Origin: Diphasiastrum complanatum
Taxonomy: Eukaryota > Streptophyta > Lycopodiopsida > Lycopodiales > Lycopodiaceae
Length of the DNA stretch: 64,000 bases
Direction: 5' to 3'
Assembly (NCBI GenBank): GCA_029204225.1
Contig: CM055093.1
Coordinates: 2,706,887 to 2,770,886, forward strand
Shown here: piece by piece, positions 3,741-64,000 of the stretch
Position numbering within the stretch: the first letter of the stretch is position 1
Layout of the letters: every line of letters starts with the position of its first letter
Position numbers and translations under genes: made by a program
The notes under the pieces: model-generated
Told to the model about the DNA's origin: nothing
What the model saw: the letters and a program-made list of their open reading frames with translations, nothing else
Database searches by the model: none

Positions 3741-5450
3741 CATGGAAGAATCATTTCATTTACATTCTATTTGGTTCTTCATATATTTGCTCATCTATGA
3801 GTTCTATATTTTCATCATATGACAAGGCATGACTAACATGAATGAGTTCATTTTCAATCAGATCTGGTATTGGATCGGTTGATATCCAAGCTACGTTCAT
3901 CATGTTCACTAGAAAAGTGATTGGCGTATCCAAATTTTGATCAGTAAGAGAATCTCGCTCAATTCGGATTTATTATGTCGTTGACACATATAGCTTGTTG
4001 TACAATCCACTGTTGCAAGAGCTTGGTTCCAATTGATAGTATCTGTTTGAGAGTCATAATGAGCTCCAAATTTTTTTACATGTCGATCACTAATATGATC
4101 CGTTGTTGACCATAGTCCAAGTGATTGGATCAACTTTGACTGCACGCTCACGATTCTCAAAAGTGATTTTTCCAGTGCCCCAGTTATAAATTACTTGCGC
4201 AACTTGTATCCATGGACATCCCAATAAGCCACGGTAAACATTCGGTGTGTCAGGTAAGTCCATTACTACTGAACTCTGGAGATCTTGACAGATATATTTT
4301 CACCATTCTCTTAGGATGGACTGTCGTTTGATCAGCTAGCTTAATGAAAAACGTGCAGGTTTTATCTTTGTAAGGCCCCACTTTGCACATAGCTTTGTTG
4401 AAATCAGGTTAACTCATGAATTTCCAGTTATCACGATTGCTTCTTTACCAAACTATCTACATTGTATTGGCAGGGTGATGTTTTGTTGCTCACTTTCCCA
4501 GACTGCTCCTACATTGAGCACTTCTTGATTATTCAAGCCTGGCACAAAAAAGTGGCTTATAATGGACTGTTGGCTCGATCTGAGTTAACTTTTCCACTAA
4601 TACTTCTTTTGCTTTCGGCACCAGCTTAAGAAATTCTCCCAGAAAAATATTCATGATCATTTCCGTTTGCGGCGCTTCAGGTTTTGTCATCTTGAAGGGT
4701 TCTTCATGATGATACAACTGAGTATTAACATATGTTTGTGATTTATGTAAATTCAAAAGCGGCACAAGTGAAGAATGGGCTTCAGTTGCTGTTTTAGCTA
4801 CTTCTAATTTTTCTTGTTCTTGCAATTGTTTAATCCATTGTCTCATATTCTGGTATCTCTTCTTTTTTGAGTTGAGATTCGGATACACCCCTGATGCAGT
4901 AGGTATATCTGTAGTTGGTACAAATTTAGCAGGTATTAAATCAACTAGAACTTCTTTATGCTTCTGAGCTCTGGTAACAACCATCAAAGATACACTCTGT
5001 TTAGTAAGCTGAGTTGTTGGTCTTTGCTTGATTATAATGATATTCATTGGAGCAGTAACCGGTGGTGGTTTTGGTCTTGTTGGACAATCCTTGTAACAAT
5101 GTCCATAAACGCATTCCCGACAAAATGGAACAAACTTTTCTTTGTTCGGATATTTTTCAAGTTGGTGGCAACATCACAATAGATAGATCTGAATCACATC
5201 TATGTGCAATAAGTCGGGCAAAGATTCTTTTTTTATTTTTTTAGAGTTTTTGGTGGTTTTTAGATTGTTTTTGTTCTGTTTCTGGAGATCTGCGAGGACA
5301 TAATCTTCGCCCTTCAATTTGAAGATACTCTGTATGAATTCGGTCCTATCTGCTACTTGACGACAGTTCTTTTCCAAAGAAGAAGAAGTTATCAAGTTTG
5401 ATGATGAAATTGTCTTCTTCTTCACCAAATCTAGCAGAAATGAACAATTT
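3741..5450 (-). pseudogene. Ty3/gypsy Gag C-terminus and aspartic protease region, broken
   Basis: Reading leftward: a zinc-knuckle-like cluster at about 5150-5060 (FCRECVYGHCYKDCPT; one residue shorter than standard), a 172-codon open stretch (5047-4529) with a Lys/Gln-rich linker, then a decayed protease region at 4520-4140. The protease flap/C-terminal motif is visible as DLPDTPNVYRGLLGCPWIQV followed by YNWGTGKITFENRE, but I found no intact D-S/T-G active site. Coding goes on as IRIERDSLTDQNLDTPITFL to about 3741, where the copia element interrupts it; the RT part resumes at 1364. Several stops and frameshifts are present. Gypsy assignment rests on the Gag-PR-RT order and RT motifs. Confidence 0.65.
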
Positions 5451-53365: not shown

Positions 53366-56280
53366 TTAAATGACAAGAAAAAGTTAAAGCAATTTAAAGG
53401 TGAGTGCTACTATTGTGAAAAAAAAGGCCATATGGTGAGAAGCTGTAGGGCAAAGCAAGCAGATGAGAAGAATGGCACCTTAAAGCCATATGCAAAGGGT
53501 GCCAAAGGCAAGCAAGAAGCCAACAATGTGCAAACAGAGTTGGAATTATTTATTGTCATTGAAGAATTATCTGTTGAAGCACAGTCATCCGACTACAAGT
53601 CGTGGGTTTTGGATAGTGAGGCATCCCGACATATGACCGGTAAGAAAGACTGATATATTTCTTTGTGGCCTCTTAAGGAAGCCATTACAGTAACTGTTGG
53701 GAATAATGTTAAGTGCCCTGCAGAAGGAACTGACACGATATATTTTGTGACAACAAATGGTGAAACCAGAAAGTTGTCTGATGTGCTTTATGTTCTTGAG
53801 ATTGCGAAGAATATGTTGTTTGTTTTTGCAATAACAAATTGCAACTTGATGATATGTCTTTTTATTTCATGTTAATCGTCGATGATTTCAGTAGAAAGAT
53901 ATGGGTGTATTTCTTCGTGACGCTTTTGGAAATTTCAAAACGTGGCACAAGCTTGTTGAGAATGAGAAAGGTTCGAAACTGGAAAAGTTTTGCATGGATC
54001 GTGGAGGAGAGTTTTGTTCAAATGCTTTTAATGACTATTGTAAAGAGCATGGCATTAAGCGCCAACTCACTGCTACGCAACGCCTCAGCAAAACAGCATC
54101 GTTGAAATAGAATTGTTATGGAGATGGCTCATTGTATGTTGAAAGCGAAGGAATTGCCTAATTCATTTTGGACAGAAGCAGTAAAAACAACATTTTACAT
54201 TTTGAATAGAACCTACACAAAGGCAGTCATAGGTATGACACCTCATGAGGTCTATTGTGGTAAGAAACCTTTAGTTGCTCATTTTCGAGTCTTTGATTAG
54301 AATGTTATGCACATGTACCAGATTCTGATCGCAAGAAATTAGATTCCAAAAGCAGAGTATGTATTTTTTTGGGCTATAGTGATGAATCAAAGGCATGCGA
54401 AATCTATGACAAAGAGGCAAAGAAAATACTTATGAGTCGAGATGTTGTTTTTGATGAAGGACCACATTCAGTGGCAGGAGATAGCCAGGCCACTTTATCA
54501 TCAAACAAAAAAATAGCTCACCAAGTGCCTTACCCAATGGCTAGTATTCCTTTGAAGGAGGAGGATACCTCAAAGAATGAGGAGGAGAAAACAGAAAGCA
54601 AGTCTGTCACGACACCACAAGGAAAGCCACCTTCATTGTGGGCTAGGCGGCTCTTTGACGAAGGGGACATTCCCACGATACTTGAATCACCTGCAGATGG
54701 GCCCCGAAGGTCAAAGAGAATAGAGGAGCAATTGAGGGCATCAGGACATATAGTGAACTTGGCACTAATGGATGAAATTATGGAAATACATGAGCCAACA
54801 AATGTGGATGAGGCTATGGCTAGTCCAGAATGGAAGGAGTCCATGCAAGCTGAGTATGATAGCTGCTATTAAAAATCAGACTTGGGAGCTTGTGAACCGA
54901 CTTCATAACAGGAAAATCATTGGCACCAAGTGGATTTGGAGAGTCAAGTGCAAATCTGATGGCACTCTTGAGAAGTATAAATCCAGGCTTGTTATGCACA
55001 AGGATTTTCACAAGTTGAAGGTTTTGATTTTCAAGAAACCTTTGCTCCCACAACTAGAATAATTATTATTCGTACTATCATTGCTATAGCTACTACCAGG
55101 GGATGGAAGATTATTCAGATGGATGTGAAATCAGCATATCTGAATGGATACCTTGAAGAGGAGATCTATGTGTTTCAACCACCAGGTTTTGAAGTACCAG
55201 GTTCAAAAAACAAGGCTTGTAGACTGAAGAAGGCTTTGTATGGGCTAAAGCAAGGAGCAAGAGTTTGGTACAAACGAATAGATGGTTTCTTTTTGTCAAA
55301 TAATTTTTTTAGATGTGCTTCTAATGCAAACTTATATTTCTACAAAGAGTATGGCAAGTATGTGGTTATTGTCCTTTATGTGGATGATTTAATAATCACC
55401 GGTGATCATGAAGAGATAACTCAAAAAACTAAGGCAATGTTAAGTTCTGAATTTGAGATGACAGATTTGGGACTTATGCACTACTATTTGGGAGTTGAAG
55501 TCTACCAAGATGTAGGAAGTACGTTCGGTTCTCAACAGAAGTATGCTCAAGAAATTCTGTAATCTTATGACATAGATGATTGTGTACCAGTGGCTATTCC
55601 TATGGAAGTGAATCTTAAACTATCTAGTGAAGATCCTTCACCACTTGTCAATTCTACAAAGTATAGGAAACTTGTGGGGCTGCTAATTTATTTAACTACC
55701 ACAAGATTTAAAATTTGTTTTGTTGGAAGTGTCTTAAGCAGATTCGCAAACATGCCTCATGAAAATCATTGGAAGCAAGACATGAGAGTTCTTAGATATC
55801 TTAAAGGTACTTTGAACTATGGTATTACTTATGGTCATGGAGAAATCTTGGCAGGATAGTACTGTGATTCTAATTGGGCTGGAGATTATGATACACGCAG
55901 ACCAATTTCTAGATATTGTTTCTCACTTGGTTCTGAAATTATTTCTTGGAATAGTAAGAAGCAAGCAACCGTGGCATTATCTTCTATCGAAGTAGAGAAT
56001 ACAAGGCAGCTTGTGTTGCAGCTTGTGAGGCAGCATGGATGTGGAGGATTTTAGCGGACTTGGGTGTACCTGTTCATGATGCTACAGCTCTAAATTGTGA
56101 TAGTCAAAGTTGCATGGCTATAGCCAGGAACCCCGTGTTTCATGCTCGGACGAAACACATTGAAATACACTATCACTATAATCAGGAGCTGATCGAGGAT
56201 GGAGCCTATAGAGTTGGCAACAAATGAGAATGTTGTTGACATCTTTACAAAAGCTTTCGGATCAGTTCAACTTTCTGGTC
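53366..56280 (+). pseudogene. Ty1/copia Gag-pol, decayed but nearly complete order
   Basis: Zinc knuckle CYYCEKKGHMVRSCRAK (about 53405), protease active site mutated to LDSEASRHMTG, then the pre-integrase domain is deleted and integrase begins at IVDDFSRKIWVYF. The core has FCMDRGGEFCSNAFNDYC but the motif expected to supply the Glu reads TATQRLSKTASLK and stops. After the linker (GYSDESKACEIYDKEAKKIL) RT follows: NQTWELVNRLHNRKIIGTKW, MDVKSAYLNGYLEEEIY, LYGLKQGARVWYKRIDGFF and the intact VLYVDDLIITGDHEEI. RNase H: WAGDYDTRRP, SWNSKKQATVALSS, NCDSQSCMAIARNPVFHART. Multiple stops and frameshifts. Ends at a polypurine tract and LTR. Confidence 0.92.
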
Positions 56281-56911: not shown

Positions 56912-58525
56912 CAATTGTCAATCATAATATATTATCCTACTTCAATGAAAGGAGTAATGGTAGCTTTTTGCTCTTCAAATAGAGTAGAGAATGTAGAATT
57001 TACATTTGTTCCACTTAAAAAGGTGTCAATGGTGGAAATGTGATCTTTCATGAGTAGATTATGTTAAAATTACATAAGCTAGTTTGAAATTTCCACTTTG
57101 TAAATTGCATTGAGGCCATGTTGTGGGATGTCACACGTGTCAAAAGCATAGAATACTTTTTTTCCAAATCAAATTCTTAACCTAGCTTTGGAATGCCACC
57201 TTTGGAATGAGGCCAAATTGTGCATAGATAAACTAGAGAGATTCTAGGAGCTAGAAATAGCAATTTTTACATTGTTTTGGATCTCAAGATCTCGACCTAA
57301 AAAATTGAGAGTAAGAAATTTCATTGCTTTTATTATTTGCTGAAATATTGACATAGGTCAAAACCTTGCGTTCAAATTCATAGCACCAATACACATCATG
57401 ATTTCCATGTCAATATATATCATCCAATATTTCACCATTTCTTGCATACACAAGTGCGAGATAAATTGACAATGCAAGAGCAATAGACAAACTACATGGA
57501 AATCATGAGGTCTTATAATGATTCCAACCTGCAACGTGTTCCAATGGAGACGAGTTTGGACCAAGGTACTCCTCACTTTGAACTCTCCAAGCAAGGGGGG
57601 TGAATCTTATGACCTAATAGATTAAACATTAGGGTTGGTCTTGAATGGATCATAGAAAGCCCTAAATGCTCAGATCCGAGGCAATCATATATAAATATGT
57701 GATGGATTTGCCATCCAATTATGAATAAAATTGAGATATTCTTTCATGACTAGTTTTTGTCTATCATTTGAGTGATGATTCTTATTGACATTTGGATTTT
57801 GTAATCATTAGAAGAGTTTGAAGGTGCAGATACATTACGCAGGCTGCAGCAGGCCGTACATCCACACATGAGATGTTTAGCATGATTTTGGAGCCAATTT
57901 GCAGAGTTCAAGCCAAGATACGCTAGAATCAATGCATTGATTTGTAATCTAGCTATTGGATCTAGTTTAATTTGGATCTTAAATATGTGCTTTCTCCATC
58001 ATTTCTAGGATCTGCATTTTCAACATGGTATAATATCCATTCCAAGAAATGAGCTATAAATCATACTAGGATCATAGATTTTGATGCAATTCAAGCATTG
58101 ATTGTCATCTAGACACAATCTATGATTTGTACCTTCAATCTTTGATGTATTTGAGTGAAGAGGGATCTAATGGGTTTTTGATTTATAGGGTTTTTAGCTT
58201 CAAAAAATTAGTTGAGGTCATCTCTAACACGATGACATTTGTTTTGGGACTTTGACCTAAAAAAGAGTAACATTTTTAGTTATTTTTTAATGGTCCTAGT
58301 TTTAGGCCAAAATCATGGTTTTTTGTAAGATTTTCTAACTTGCAATAAAAAAAATGTTAAAAAGTGTCTATTTTTAATGAAGCACTGCAATTTTTTTTTT
58401 TGCAAATTTCATAAAACCATCATTATTACATACCGCATAACATTTTAAGACAACACATGATTTTTGAGAGTCCAAATGCCATTAGAATAAAGAAGGGCTT
58501 AAATTATATTATGTATATATTTTGT
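56912..58525. other. Gene-free AT-rich stretch
   Basis: No coding region, RNA gene or repeat recognised between the copia LTR and the - strand DUF7869-like gene. Confidence 0.55.
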
Positions 58526-61500
58526 TCAAAATACATTTTCTAAGAAATTTTCACTAATGCCTCTCAATTCAGAACTTGACACATTTTGAATACTCTCGTT
58601 TTCAGCCGATGAGGTGGAAGACCCGTCTTCTTCATTAGAGTCCACTGACATATCATCCTCAGAATTTGTGTCCAATGTTGATAAAAAAAATCTTGTAAGT
58701 CAATTTTCTTCTGTTGTTGACAAGTTGACGACGATGGTTGTTTCATTAATCCAAGTCGTTCATTCAGTATGGCTATAGTTGACTTTCGTAGACGATTGGT
58801 CATATTAACTCAAAATTAAAAGCCAAAACATCTACATCTTGTAAATTCCAATTATCAACCCTCGGTTGGTTCTTTGGCAATCGTTTTCTCTTGCCCTTTG
58901 GATCTACTTGCAACATTTCATATTCGCACCTTCCCAAAAAAGCATTTGTTGAAGTGGTGCGCAACCAATGGACACGTAGTACTTTTGTCTGATTGCTATT
59001 TTGAATGAAACCAAGTACTTTTGCAATCCAAAATGGATGTCCTTCATTGTTTTCTGAAGCTAGAAGTGCAACAAGACTCCCAATTTGAATTTCATTGAGA
59101 TCACCATGCCACTTTATTTTTGTAGCTTTTACACTTTGCCTATTCTTCCTTGAGCCCACATAAATTTCACGTTCCTCACCTTGCACAAGCTCCAAGAATC
59201 ATTATCTCGAGGGAGATTTGAAGGTTCGACAATTGTAGTTGAAGTTCCTAATTTCTGAGGCCAGTGAAATTCTTCAGTTGTTGATGCATGTTCAAGATTG
59301 AGCAAACTGATTTTTTTTTCCTCAAAAAAGTCCAACCACCAATGCTGATCAAACTCATCAAAAAATTGAAAAGTTGCTTGAATACTTGATTCCAAAAAAT
59401 TTCACGAGGCAAATGGGTCAACCTCACGATGCTCTCTTTGTGTTTTTTGTTCTTCTAGCATGTACTTCAAGGGAGACAACACAACAAGAGGCATATTTAG
59501 CAGAAACCGTATTCCTTCAATATGTAACCATGAATTTGAACTTGAAAATTGTTTGTCCCATAACAATGTGATGCCAATTTCATTGCATTTGATTTTGAAC
59601 TGATGTTGAAAGCTAATATCATTAATAGTAGCAACACAATGATTTGTTTCATTGGACGCCTTAATGTATTCACGAAAATCAAAGTGTGCCTAATTAACGA
59701 CACATTTGGCTTTGGCAAGTATGATTCTTCAACAATGCTCAAAAGCACTGGTAAAGAAAATGCATCTTAGTCTTTTGGAAAGACAACTAAACATCTGATC
59801 AATTTGATCATGGGTGTGACCCACCAACAAAAATCCTTTTTTTATTTTTTTGAAATTTTTTTTTTTCTACCAGCATCGATAAGTAATCTTGTACAGCTTG
59901 ATTTTTATTTTTCTTAGCAGTGTTATCAAAATGCAAATATAGTATTTGTAGAAGATTATCACCAAATTCGCAAATTATCTTTTGTACAATGGTTATGGTT
60001 AAATTTGGATCGTTTTGAACATTAAATAATTGAAAAATACTTTCGACTCCAATGTGCCATTAAACACAAGTGCTCCAATGAGATGAACCTGAATAAAATC
60101 TTCCTCGTTCAAATTTTTTGGCACTCTAACAAAATGAGACAACATCGTTTTCTTCTAATCCATGCCATTGATGACAAGGCCCAAATACTTTTGTGGACAT
60201 TTCAAGCATTTCTTTTGAAGTTTCATCAATTTTTGTCTTTCAATTTTTTATTGATCTCTGTGCACTTGAAGCGCTTTTGCAGCATCCATTACAAAATGTA
60301 ACAATTAAAATATTTCAATAAAATTAAAATAATATCATAACATTAATGATTTGAAAATTTAAAAGTTAGCAAAAAAATAAAGTTTTTAAAGTAGTGAAAA
60401 TAAATTAATTTTTATCTTTCTCAACATTGGTCTTTGCAAGTTGTTTGGCAGATTTTAACAACTCGCATGTCGAATAAACTGTTATTCGTGATTTTTTAGG
60501 AATTTTCACCAAACCAAAATCTCTCTTCCAAATCCTAAGAAAATATGAGTAACTTAAATAGGCAACATTTTTTGTCTTAGCAAACTCCTTGTACATCAAA
60601 AATATCTCCAATTTTGTATAATTATCTAGCAAGTGAAAATATAATGAATTTGGTAATTTCTCTCCATGCACCTCCACAAAATGCTTTAGCGAGCCGTAGC
60701 ATTCAAAGCATCCAAAGACACGGTTCTACCTTGCAATGATCCTTGCAATGTTGGATCTTTTTTAAGTCGTGCATGCATTCTTTGAAGACATGAATTTTCA
60801 ATTGCATGAACAACTTTGTAGGCTTTTCGACAAACCTCTGTTGCATTTAAAAAATATGCATACGAGTTTTTGTCAAGTCTCACTGTGACACACAAATAGT
60901 AATTCTTTTCATCTTTACTTCGCAAGAAAAACTTGGACAACAATTTCTCGATCTTTTTGTTATTTAATTTCTGTAAGCAAGAGGCTGAACAACAAATAAT
61001 GGACCGTACTTTCCGAATCTCGTGTCTTGTAATCAATTGTTTTTGACGTTTTGTCAAATTAGGTGAAGATTTCAAGTCTCTCTTATATCTTTTCTTTCTT
61101 TTGAAATCGGATTTGTAAATTGACGATGTGGCACTTGTAGTTGCTCGAACAGGTTGAGAAGATGTGGGAATGTCTGCCTGAACATCAAGTTGTTGTTGGT
61201 TTGCCTCAGCTAGTTCTGTAGTGCCAGAAAAAAAAGGATTTTCATTAAATATAGCTCTTTTAGATTTGACCAGATTAGGGATTTGAGAAATGGACCTTTT
61301 TCGAATATGTGAAAAACTTGCACGTCGAGGATCATTTGATTGACGGGGATCTGTAGATTTACTTGAATCCGTGACTGAGTGAATTGAATCCTGTGAATCA
61401 TCACTCACTAACTCTTTTGATTGGTCAAAACAATATTGCAATGTTGTTTCTCTACTATCTGAATCAGAAGACGAAGAACTCAAATTTGTAACAAGTTGTG

Positions 61501-61692
61501 TCAAAGGAATCATTTCTTGAAAAGTAGTTAGATGAGGAGTTTTAGATGATGTTGTTGACTGAAAACAGAAAGGGTAATAGGACAAGAACCCGAGGGAGTG
61601 GCTTCATAATAATAGCTTTCATTAGGAATATCAGATGTGGCTACATACTGAGTTACAACTACAAGAATAGAAGAAGAAGAACTACTCACCAT
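58526..61692 (-). pseudogene. DUF7869-like transposase-type gene, broken
   Basis: From 61692 leftward: a Ser-rich N-terminus; a Cys/Lys segment (VRSIICCSASCLQKLNNKKI, then NATEVCRKAYKVVHAIENSC); KHFVEVHGEKLPNSLYFHLL; YSYFLRIWKRDFGLVKIPKK followed by STCELLKSAKQLA. After an AT-rich break (60404-60300) come LGLVINGMD, VHLIGALVFNG, LYLHFDN near 59930, and GFLLVGHTHDQIDQMFSCLS near 59800. The end holds LVALLASENNEGHPFWIAKV and an acidic tail stopping at 58526. This order (CxxC block, D-G-MD, LxxDN, GHTHxxIDQ) matches my memory of the DUF7869 family of transposase-like proteins in plants, algae, oomycetes and animals. Damage: TAG at 60155-60157 in MD(Q)KKT, an upstream TAA, and frameshifts near 60690, 60040, 59760 and 59190. 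An intron may explain the AT break. Confidence 0.7.
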
Positions 61693-61941
61693 GACAAAAA
61701 TCTAAAAAAATAAAAAATTATCCCTATGTTAAGCATAGACAAAAATAAAAATATGAACGTAAAAATTTTACAACAGACCAAATTTTTTTCTTATCCTATG
61801 TTGGTCATAGAAAAAGTTAAACAGACTATGCTAACACTTATAGAACTAGACACTAAAATTTGCAAAGAACACATTTAACCTGAAATCAACAATAACAATG
61901 ATAATTTTCACATGCAAAATACTTCTCTTAAATAATAAAAT

Positions 61942-62040
61942 GTTAGGGTTAGAGTTAGGGTCAAGTATAGGATTAGGGTTAGAGTTTCGTTCTAAAAGCA
62001 GGGTTAAAGTTGATAAACTTGACACATTGCCGGTTAGGGT
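61942..62040 (+). repeat. Telomere-like degenerate TTAGGG tract
   Basis: TTAGGGTTAGAGTTAGGGTC, GATTAGGGTTAGAG and GGTTAGGGTTG recur within 100 bp. This resembles a short, degenerate telomeric-type repeat (plant telomeres are usually TTTAGGG). Confidence 0.6.
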
Positions 62041-62129
62041 TGAAAAACATGACACATTGGTAACCGTAAAGGTTGGTGGTAGTATTGGTATTTTGTGAAA
62101 AAGAGATCCCATTAAAATTTGGCGGTCAA

Positions 62130-62280
62130 TTTTTTCTATTTAAGGACCCACAAAGAAGGACAAGGCACTTCATTTGCGATTTTGTGTTAAAGGTTGTCGT
62201 CAGAGCGATCTAAGCGTTCATTTGATGATCTTCTATAATCTCGCGCATAGCTTTCAGCGAGCCTTTTCTAATGAAGGTGA
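62130..62280 (+). promoter_or_regulatory. Possible promoter and leader of a + strand gene
   Basis: CTATTTAAGG near 62138 is TATA-like, followed by leader-like sequence and AAG|GTGACA at about 62275, a possible splice donor. It lies back to back with the start of the - strand DUF7869-like gene, so the region could be a divergent promoter. Confidence 0.3.
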
Positions 62281-62399
62281 CATTTCTAATTTTTTTCTTT
62301 TTCAAAGTTTTTCTTTATGCTTAGCATAGTATTACAGACATTTAGTTTATTTAAATAGCAAAAGATCTTATGCTAAGCATAGCGTAGACCAACAATTTT

Positions 62400-62832
62400 C
62401 TTTTATTTTGCAACTATTGGCTATGCTCAGCACAGGAAACTAGCTTTCTCTCGTCCAAGTCTTATGTTGAGCATAACATCTTCTCTTTCTTTAAGAGCTA
62501 ACGTTATGCTCAGCATAAGATATTATCATCTTCTCTCCCGACTTCTATGTTGAGCATAGCATTCATCCTCACTCAACACATTTATGTTATGCTGTGAACA
62601 TAAGATCTCCTCATCGCGGTTGAGGAGATCCTATGTTCAGCATAATATAAACGCATTGAGTGAGTAGGAATGCTATGCTCAGCATAGAAGTCGGAAGAGA
62701 GGATGATAATATCCTATGCTGAGCATAACATTAGCTCTTTAATAAAGAGAAGATGTTATGCTCAACATGAGACTTGGACGAGAGAAAGCTAGTTTCCTAT
62801 GTTGAGCATAGCCAATAGTTGCAAAATAAAAG
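62400..62832. repeat. 433-bp foldback: 213-bp inverted arms, 7-bp loop
   Basis: Left arm 62400-62613 starts CTTTTATTTTGCAACTATTG and right arm 62621-62832 ends CAATAGTTGCAAAATAAAAG. The arms complement each other along their whole length with roughly one mismatch in ten, around the loop TCGCGGT. The palindromic motif is spaced about 41-42 bp apart within each arm. Confidence 0.95.
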
Positions 62833-63064
62833 AACTTTCTATCCTATCATTGAAGATACTTATTTTTTTTGGCTTATATACAATTTTTTTTTAAAAAAAC
62901 CTCCAAAATCTACACAAAAATGTTGGTTTCTAATCATATTTATTGTTAAGATTTTAAGAATCAAACTTGAATTTTATTGGATTTGTCTAATAAAATTGTA
63001 CTAAAATGGCAATAATAATTGTATTTTTGCATATTTTTAGAGAGATAGTTTTGCAAAATTAAGG

Positions 63065-63313
63065 ATGTCAAAAATTTCTTTTTGGATGTCGTCCGGGGCA
63101 CAAGATGTTTCATTAAAGAACAAGAAAAAACACATGTTTTATTTTACAAAAGGTGTAAATAACACGAAACTTGATGAACTATTTATCCATGTTGCTGAGA
63201 AGAGCGGAAGAGGAGATAGTCCATTTAAGGTGCAAGGTAGAGTACTTAAAGATCAACCCAACAATGATGAGGAGCAAGAGGGCTTGTCAAGGTTCTTGTC
63301 AAAAAAAACTTGA
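63065..63313 (+). CDS. Unknown 82-codon ORF, possible exon
   Basis: ATG at 63065 opens MSKISFWMSSGAQDVSLKNK, then KKHMFYFTKGVNNTKLDELF and SPFKVQGRVLKDQPNNDEEQ, to a stop at 63313. Composition is coding-like (Lys/Asp/Glu-rich) in an AT-rich setting. I do not recognise it. Its position opposite the DUF7869-like gene and among the palindromic motifs suggests it may be an accessory ORF of the same element, joined by splicing to the block at 63583. Confidence 0.4.
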   Translation: MSKISFWMSSGAQDVSLKNKKKHMFYFTKGVNNTKLDELFIHVAEKSGRGDSPFKVQGRVLKDQPNNDEEQEGLSRFLSKKT

Positions 63314-63582
63314 CAAAACTCGTTCTATTCATTTTGGATGAAGGAATGTTGAAGATTTGACTTTGCCGAGATGAAGTTGTTAAGACATATTTTGACAAAG
63401 CACATGTGACATTGGTAGGTACACTCAAAGAATTTATAAATTTTTACTCGGATCATCAGTCTCATTTAGAATAAATTAGGTTTTGGATTATTTAGTATTG
63501 TAATAATTGCATTCTATGCTGATCATAGATCACATTATGATTATTCGAAGTTCTTTAATATTGTTTTTCTAGTTTTTGTCAT

Positions 63583-63893
63583 ATAGAGCCTCAAACAATG
63601 TCTACAGAACTTGTTGGATGCTGTTGCTGAGGGGAAGGATCTAATCTTCACTTCTCGTGGTTCAAAGTCAATGGCTTTGGGACGTGGCAAAATAGCTTCC
63701 TCCATTGTCCCTTCCAACATTGAGAGTACCAAAAAATCTGCACCTTCTAAATCAGTCCCTTTCCTGAAAAAAAAAAAGATCTCAAACTTCTGTACATACT
63801 GAAGAGGGTGTAAAGAAATTGAGGTCTAGAAACAAATCAATGGCCAAGCGACCCAAAGTAATTCCCTCTGAAGAAAGTAGAAACAAAAAATAG
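63583..63893 (+). pseudogene. Unknown basic ORF, possible last exon, one frameshift
   Basis: After a pyrimidine-rich stretch ending CATATAG (63582), the frame LQNLLDAVAEGKDLIFTSRG, SKSMALGRGKIASSIV, ESTKKSAPSKSVPFLKK runs into an 11-A tract (about 63768-63778); one frame over it continues as RSQTSVHTEEGVKKLRSRNK and MAKRPKVIPSEESRNKK to TAG at 63891. The Lys/Arg/Ser-rich make-up suggests a nuclear, nucleic-acid-binding tail. The homopolymer could be a true frameshift or a sequencing error. Confidence 0.35.
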
Positions 63894-64000
63894 AGAAGTC
63901 CACATTAATTTTGCTTGGAGCCTCCATCCAACCTCTAAGAGATTCATCTGAGATTTCCAAACTTAGAGATGAAATTCATAAAACAAAAAAAATTACAAAA

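Follow-up and report, generated by a model that had tools for sequence, protein, structure and literature searches.

A stretch of 64,000 nucleotides on contig CM055093.1 of the Diphasiastrum complanatum genome (hereafter the window; C2:2706887-2770886 of the 1.74-Gb assembly with 5176 contigs that was searched here) contains near its right-hand end what is likely a right-truncated, decayed member of a two-gene DNA transposon family. This element, called the DUF7869 element here after the Pfam domain of its gene A, also carries a divergently oriented gene B, with an array of short palindromes between the two genes. The following features were located, given in window coordinates:

58217-58224 and 64601-64616 (the latter just outside the window; L009 8588-8603): GTCATCTC, flanking both sides of the window copy
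58226..58236, plus strand: left terminal inverted repeat AACACGATGAC, the left end common to the copies of the element
58529..61692, minus strand: gene A, a broken DUF7869 gene for a predicted transposase (ATG at 61692-61690, C-terminal homology to about 58529)
61725..61737, no strand: palindrome TATGTTAAGCATA, just upstream of gene A
62316..62810, no strand: main array of 11 scored palindromes between the divergent genes, mostly 41-42 bp apart (starts at 62316, 62369, 62422, 62463, 62505, 62546, 62632, 62674, 62715, 62757 and 62798)
62398..62834, no strand: long hairpin with two 197-nt arms, formed by the palindrome array and symmetric spacers
63065..63471, plus strand: first recognised coding block of gene B, frameshifted in the window copy (tblastn)
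63515..63527, no strand: palindrome TATGCTGATCATA between gene B coding blocks, in a putative intron
63590..63948, plus strand: second coding block of gene B (tblastn)
64016-64305, plus strand, beyond the window: third block of gene B (tblastn)

An earlier note on this DNA, made from the sequence alone, had proposed a single element consisting of a broken DUF7869-like gene, a cluster of palindromes, a giant hairpin and a small divergent open reading frame (ORF). All of these parts were recovered, and ends, palindromes and hairpin are shared by genomic copies. The motifs INGMD, LHFDN and GHTHDQIDQ, by which the gene had been recognised, lie in minus-strand reading frames between 58.5 and 61.7 kb that are interrupted by stop codons and frameshifts. 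In the Pfam search, two of eight gene A pieces matched DUF7869 (PF25273) above the cut-off (E 5e-9 and 1e-12). A total of 93 homologues was found, with fern and liverwort sequences among them; no transposase relative was detected among the viral contigs searched. The core of a structure model of the homologue P0002 (870 amino acids, aa) resembles retroviral integrases and Mos1, with a predicted RNase H-like catalytic core and conserved acidic residues. Judged by this model, gene A would encode a DDE/D cut-and-paste transposase, for which we infer excision and integration activity.

The element belongs to a repeated family. Using gene A DNA as a query, at least 55 genomic matches were obtained (best 40 of 3172 candidates scored), and 20 loci of 10 kb each, the window copy included, were retrieved and compared. 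At 10 of the 19 other loci the alignment to the window copy starts at 58225/58226, and the flanks differ between loci; in L011 it begins 6 bp further in, yet a recognisable left end is present. The right ends of L011, L016, L018, L010 and L027 consist of GTCACCATGTT or a near variant. Left end (AACACGATGAC) and reversed right end (AACATGGTGAC) form an imperfect inverted repeat with 9 of 11 positions identical. Genome-wide, 745 places match the left-end pattern with no more than 2 mismatches and 388 match the right-end pattern with no more than 3, compared with 0 for either pattern read backwards as a control. No right end was found when one was sought for L021, and the same holds for left ends at two other places. 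The extent first assigned to the element, 58526..63893, lies within it, but the true left end at 58226 is about 300 bp outside the 58526 start and the element extends past the window end. The canonical right end also lies beyond the window, and the window copy itself stops at 64608: it retains the left part, gene A and the array, whereas the right part with the methyltransferase exons of gene B (see below) is missing. The full length of about 9 kb is only an estimate because the both-ended copies that were read carry internal deletions.

Some further observations concern the copies and their surroundings. A 1488-bp family of miniature inverted-repeat transposable elements (MITEs), predicted from common right ends, was discarded, as 10 of 10 places tested had no left end there. 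At C2:4664017-4664196 three right-end patterns follow each other at 74-bp spacing, which looks like a tandem duplication of the terminus, and two with the same 74-bp spacing are found on C4918. L018 contains an 832-bp insertion within gene A (3926-4757) that is 96% identical to L014 6939-7770, which exceeds the similarity of the host elements; by sequence this is probably a younger mobile element. Upstream of the element, at 54772-56227 of the window, there are reading frames resembling a decayed pol gene, which we take to be of the Copia type.

The alignment of genomic copies that the earlier note had suggested also revealed a target-site duplication. Seven copies have both canonical ends (L011, L016, a C7 copy, L010, a C3 copy, L017 and L031), and for these, duplication lengths of 2-10 bp were compared with a null of 1854 re-pairings of the flanks. 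At a length of 4 bp, 23 of 28 flank positions match in the 7 pairs, compared with a null mean of 8 and maximum of 14. At a length of 2 there are 9 of 14 matches, which is also more than the null maximum of 8, and a length of 7 exceeds its null weakly; at 3, 5, 6, 8, 9 and 10 the agreement in the 7 pairs is not above the null. Three duplications are perfect (AAAA, AAAT and TTTT, all of low complexity), and three others have 1 mismatch. The window copy was excluded from this test because its right end is missing. An 8-bp duplication, suggested by GTCATCTC on both sides of this copy, was rejected, since the seven canonical pairs support 4 bp and not 8. The right junction of the window copy is non-canonical and falls within a palindrome of other copies. 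Its left flank is a repeat: 38 other places stop matching at or beside the joint of the two flanks (40 of 2186 candidates scored), and the right flank therefore does not look like the usual continuation of the repeat. Its termini, the 4-bp duplication and the fold predicted for its transposase together class the element among the DDE/D DNA transposons.

The small divergent ORF, on the plus strand at 63065-63313, turned out to be the start of the accessory gene B, which consists of multiple blocks. Methyltransferase blocks are carried by L011, L016, L017, L018 and L025. The last exons of gene B match PF01555 (N6_N4_Mtase) in L011 (E 4e-7) and in L060 (E 3e-11), and two further copies remained below the cut-off in the same search as L011. 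Enzymes of the beta class have the order D/S-x-P-Y before FxGxG, and L017 shows this order, with D-I-P-Y (DIPYG) followed by the S-adenosylmethionine (AdoMet) motif DLFSGSGTT. A protein search yielded 33 proteins of 311-989 aa at E <=0.1; the closest one is P0094 (E 1e-30, 33% identity), and the next are bacterial methylases (best E 6e-8). The structure model of P0094 gave 27 fold matches at E <=0.001, all of them DNA methyltransferases (N6-adenine, N4-cytosine or putative), with solved rotifer N4CMT structures among the top matches. The sequence search of solved structures with P0094 gave weak matches only (best E 0.006). The product predicted for gene B is encoded by multiple exons and carries a beta-class DNA methyltransferase of bacterial type at its C-terminal end. 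The NCBIfam models nearest to L060 are adenine-specific, with scores far under their cut-offs; that the enzyme modifies adenine at N6 is a guess.

In the whole genome, at least 181 methyltransferase matches were found by protein search (best 112 of 4714 candidates scored), several of them of exon length and stop-free. From the positions listed (89 methyltransferase, 130 left-end and 86 right-end positions), neighbouring pairs were examined. Among these matches, all 5 methyltransferase-left end pairs within 15 kb and all 6 methyltransferase-right end pairs within 5 kb have the expected order and strand. Selection was examined as the ratio of nonsynonymous to synonymous substitution (dN/dS), with non-independent pairs in both genes. 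For the last methyltransferase exon, 21 copies were used, which are a biased choice of 20 stop-free copies together with L011, L016 and L017, minus 2 duplicates; dN/dS is 1.54 at dS <0.06 and goes down to 0.21 above 0.3, and for pooled pairs with dS >=0.2 it is 0.30 (bootstrap 0.23-0.39). For gene A, compared in 170 pairs from 19 loci, the ratio drops from 0.65 to 0.22 at dS >0.5. Both genes are under purifying selection between subfamilies, with dN/dS about 0.2. Recent copies look near neutral, and the ancestral lineages look constrained in both genes.

With at most 2 mismatches allowed, the window contains 17 instances of the palindrome TATGCTNAGCATA, and 13 of them fall within 61725-63527, whereas 100 shuffles of the whole window gave a mean of 3.7 and a maximum of 9. 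Palindromes were scored in the 12 of the 20 loci with usable extents. Each of these elements contains 3-20 palindromes, the unit number differing between copies, and none was found in the 38 kb outside the 12 elements. Only 1 of 166 palindromes lies within the tblastn coding blocks (31.5 kb, compared with 44.7 kb of other DNA, which contains some coding DNA because the blocks are incomplete); counting bridging P0094 matches as coding, the number is 4 of 166. In L016, palindromes lie both between the two genes and between gene B blocks. A spacing of 41 bp was counted in 35 cases and one of 42 bp in 32, so that each unit spans roughly four turns of the helix. The hairpin arms (62398-62594 and 62638-62834) are 92% complementary over 197 nt and separated by 43 nt, and self-inverse matches over the same region are found in L013, L014, L016, L021, L023 and L025. 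Foldback (FB) transposons have their long inverted repeats at the element ends, and an assignment to this group was rejected because the hairpin is internal. Degenerate TTAGGG-like repeats are located at 61940-62045, in the stretch that separates gene A from the palindrome array.

The distances of the first and last palindrome to the left and right end are 2.8 and 1.5 kb in L016, 3.4 and 1.6 kb in L011, and 3.4 and 0.5 kb in L010, a copy with an internal deletion. The 1488-bp copy L031 lacks palindromes altogether although both its ends are present. The palindromes are a component of the element, but judged by these distances and by L031 they are not subterminal.

For the function of the palindromes, the closest known layout is that of VANDAL transposons. 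In VANDAL21 of Arabidopsis, arrays of a self-specific motif precede a gene and also occupy introns of accessory genes, vary by gain and loss of repeats, and are bound by the anti-silencing protein of the element itself, VANC21 (Hosaka et al., 2017, PMC5735166, available excerpt); anti-silencing by VANC is also described for VANDAL MULE transposons by Sasaki et al. (2023, PMC10398659, available excerpt). The DUF7869 element likewise has arrays of a motif of its own outside the coding sequence, ahead of one gene as well as within putative introns. It differs in that its motif is a palindrome and its accessory protein a predicted DNA methyltransferase. Furthermore, VANDAL elements have a MULE transposase and a duplication of about 9 bp, whereas the DUF7869 element matched DUF7869 only in Pfam, has a 4-bp duplication and is not assigned to the MULEs.

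Modelled on the action of VANC proteins for VANDAL transposons, the following mechanism is proposed. The gene A transposase would move the element via its short terminal inverted repeats, leaving 4-bp duplications. The gene B protein would bind or methylate the TATGCTNAGCATA palindromes, and the resulting marking of the non-coding DNA of the element would either keep it active against host silencing or tune both genes. As a whole, the explanation we favour with modest confidence is a DDE transposon carrying a methyltransferase that is directed at the palindrome arrays of the element itself, and the anatomy in this explanation is firmer than the mechanism: ends, duplications, gene content, selection and palindrome placement are well supported. 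Since the VANC21 motif arrays are bound by the protein of their own element, the gene B protein is by analogy a reasonable candidate for the reader or writer of the palindromes, a role we hold to be just short of probable. More tentative is the proposal of a transposon family that might write an N6-adenine or N4-cytosine mark on its own non-coding palindrome arrays by means of a self-encoded bacterial-type enzyme.

Alternatively, the array could be a bidirectional promoter or operator through which the divergent genes are autoregulated, with the transposase or the unassigned N-terminal part of the gene B protein binding to it and the methyltransferase acting elsewhere, e.g., on the termini or the genome at large. 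The position between the divergent genes agrees with this, as does the 41-42 bp spacing, which sets the palindromes on one helix face, and palindromes suit dimeric regulators; an operator has, however, no need of the single palindromes between gene B blocks far downstream, and we consider it unlikely. Even less probable is a functionless palindromic minisatellite, grown by slippage or hairpin-primed copying, with the methyltransferase as unrelated cargo. The differing unit number and the symmetry of the spacers as well would be expected from it, but the same 13-mer stands singly between gene B blocks and hardly ever occurs in the coding sequence that was scored. In addition, palindrome columns are 90% alike in six aligned arrays compared with 78% elsewhere, a difference that none of 556 circularly shifted masks reached, although the best shift is close (0.123 compared with 0.124). 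The reading of the earlier note as subterminal transposase-binding sites, in line with multiple element-specific palindromes, is highly improbable: in three copies the distance of the palindromes is 2.8-3.4 kb to the left terminus and 0.5-1.6 kb to the right one, and L031 has no palindrome. Deletion breakpoints at palindromes, noticed by eye in the window copy and L020, were dropped, as this impression was not backed by a count.

Several points weigh against the proposed self-marking transposon. Every step by which the gene B protein would be connected with the palindromes is one that we infer. The usual motif of such methyltransferases is D-P-P-Y, from which D-I-P-Y deviates (D-I-P-Y is also present in the bacterial P0099), and the structure model of P0094 is of low confidence (pLDDT, predicted local distance difference test score, 47.5). 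Among the 33 proteins P0094 was the only close methyltransferase relative found, and no sequence carried a fern or liverwort label; the pairing of transposase and methyltransferase is shown in the D. complanatum genome only. Every retrieved window-like copy is decayed. As to the duplication, the L031 flanks match at only 2 of 4 positions, all three perfect duplications are AT-only, and the 8-bp flank match of the window copy falls outside the 4-bp rule.

Among other known systems, Sola2 transposons have AT-rich 4-bp duplications and inverted repeats of 12-21 bp (Bao and Jurka, 2013, PMC3627910, available excerpt). The DUF7869 element resembles them in its short inverted repeats, 4-bp duplication and transposase size (888 aa in Sola2, 870 aa in P0002), but its inverted repeat has about 11 bp and its duplications are not all AT. 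Sola is therefore a lead for the superfamily on ends and duplication only, Pfam having given DUF7869 alone. The same paper, in the part available, describes methyltransferases in two Mariner elements and states that none had been reported in transposons before. These also carry a DNA methyltransferase beside the transposase, but the transposase is of the Mariner type, the methyltransferases belong to the Methyltransf_26 and Cyt_C5 families, and the available excerpt mentions no palindrome array. Fungal DNA transposons with a TET/JBP dioxygenase (PMC12730594, available excerpt) likewise carry a DNA-modifying enzyme, perhaps against silencing; it is a dioxygenase and not a methyltransferase, and the host is a fungus. 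The N4CMT of bdelloid rotifers (PMC8885841, available excerpt) is a bacterial-type N6_N4 methylase in a eukaryote as well, but is reported to serve a eukaryotic epigenetic mark there, whereas the enzyme of the DUF7869 element is located inside a transposon. In the literature searched, outside which most subscription journals lie, no paper naming DUF7869 was found; in titles and the beginnings of abstracts from that literature, with Repbase also outside it, no plant DNA transposon bearing a methyltransferase is described.

With these results DUF7869, a Pfam domain of unknown function, gains ends, a duplication length, a predicted integrase-like fold and an accessory gene; if correct, a DUF7869 element would for the first time have defined termini, a known duplication length and an accessory gene. 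The ends, the duplication and the predicted fold make DUF7869 genes testable as transposases. The accessory gene places a predicted N6/N4 DNA methyltransferase within a transposon of a plant-like genome, under purifying selection similar to that on the transposase, and the element may mark or protect its own DNA. If this is true, the element would be marking itself and would have arrived at the layout of the VANC motifs along a different biochemical route, and the VANC-like motif layout in an unrelated element makes the repeated evolution of self-recognising chromatin marks testable.

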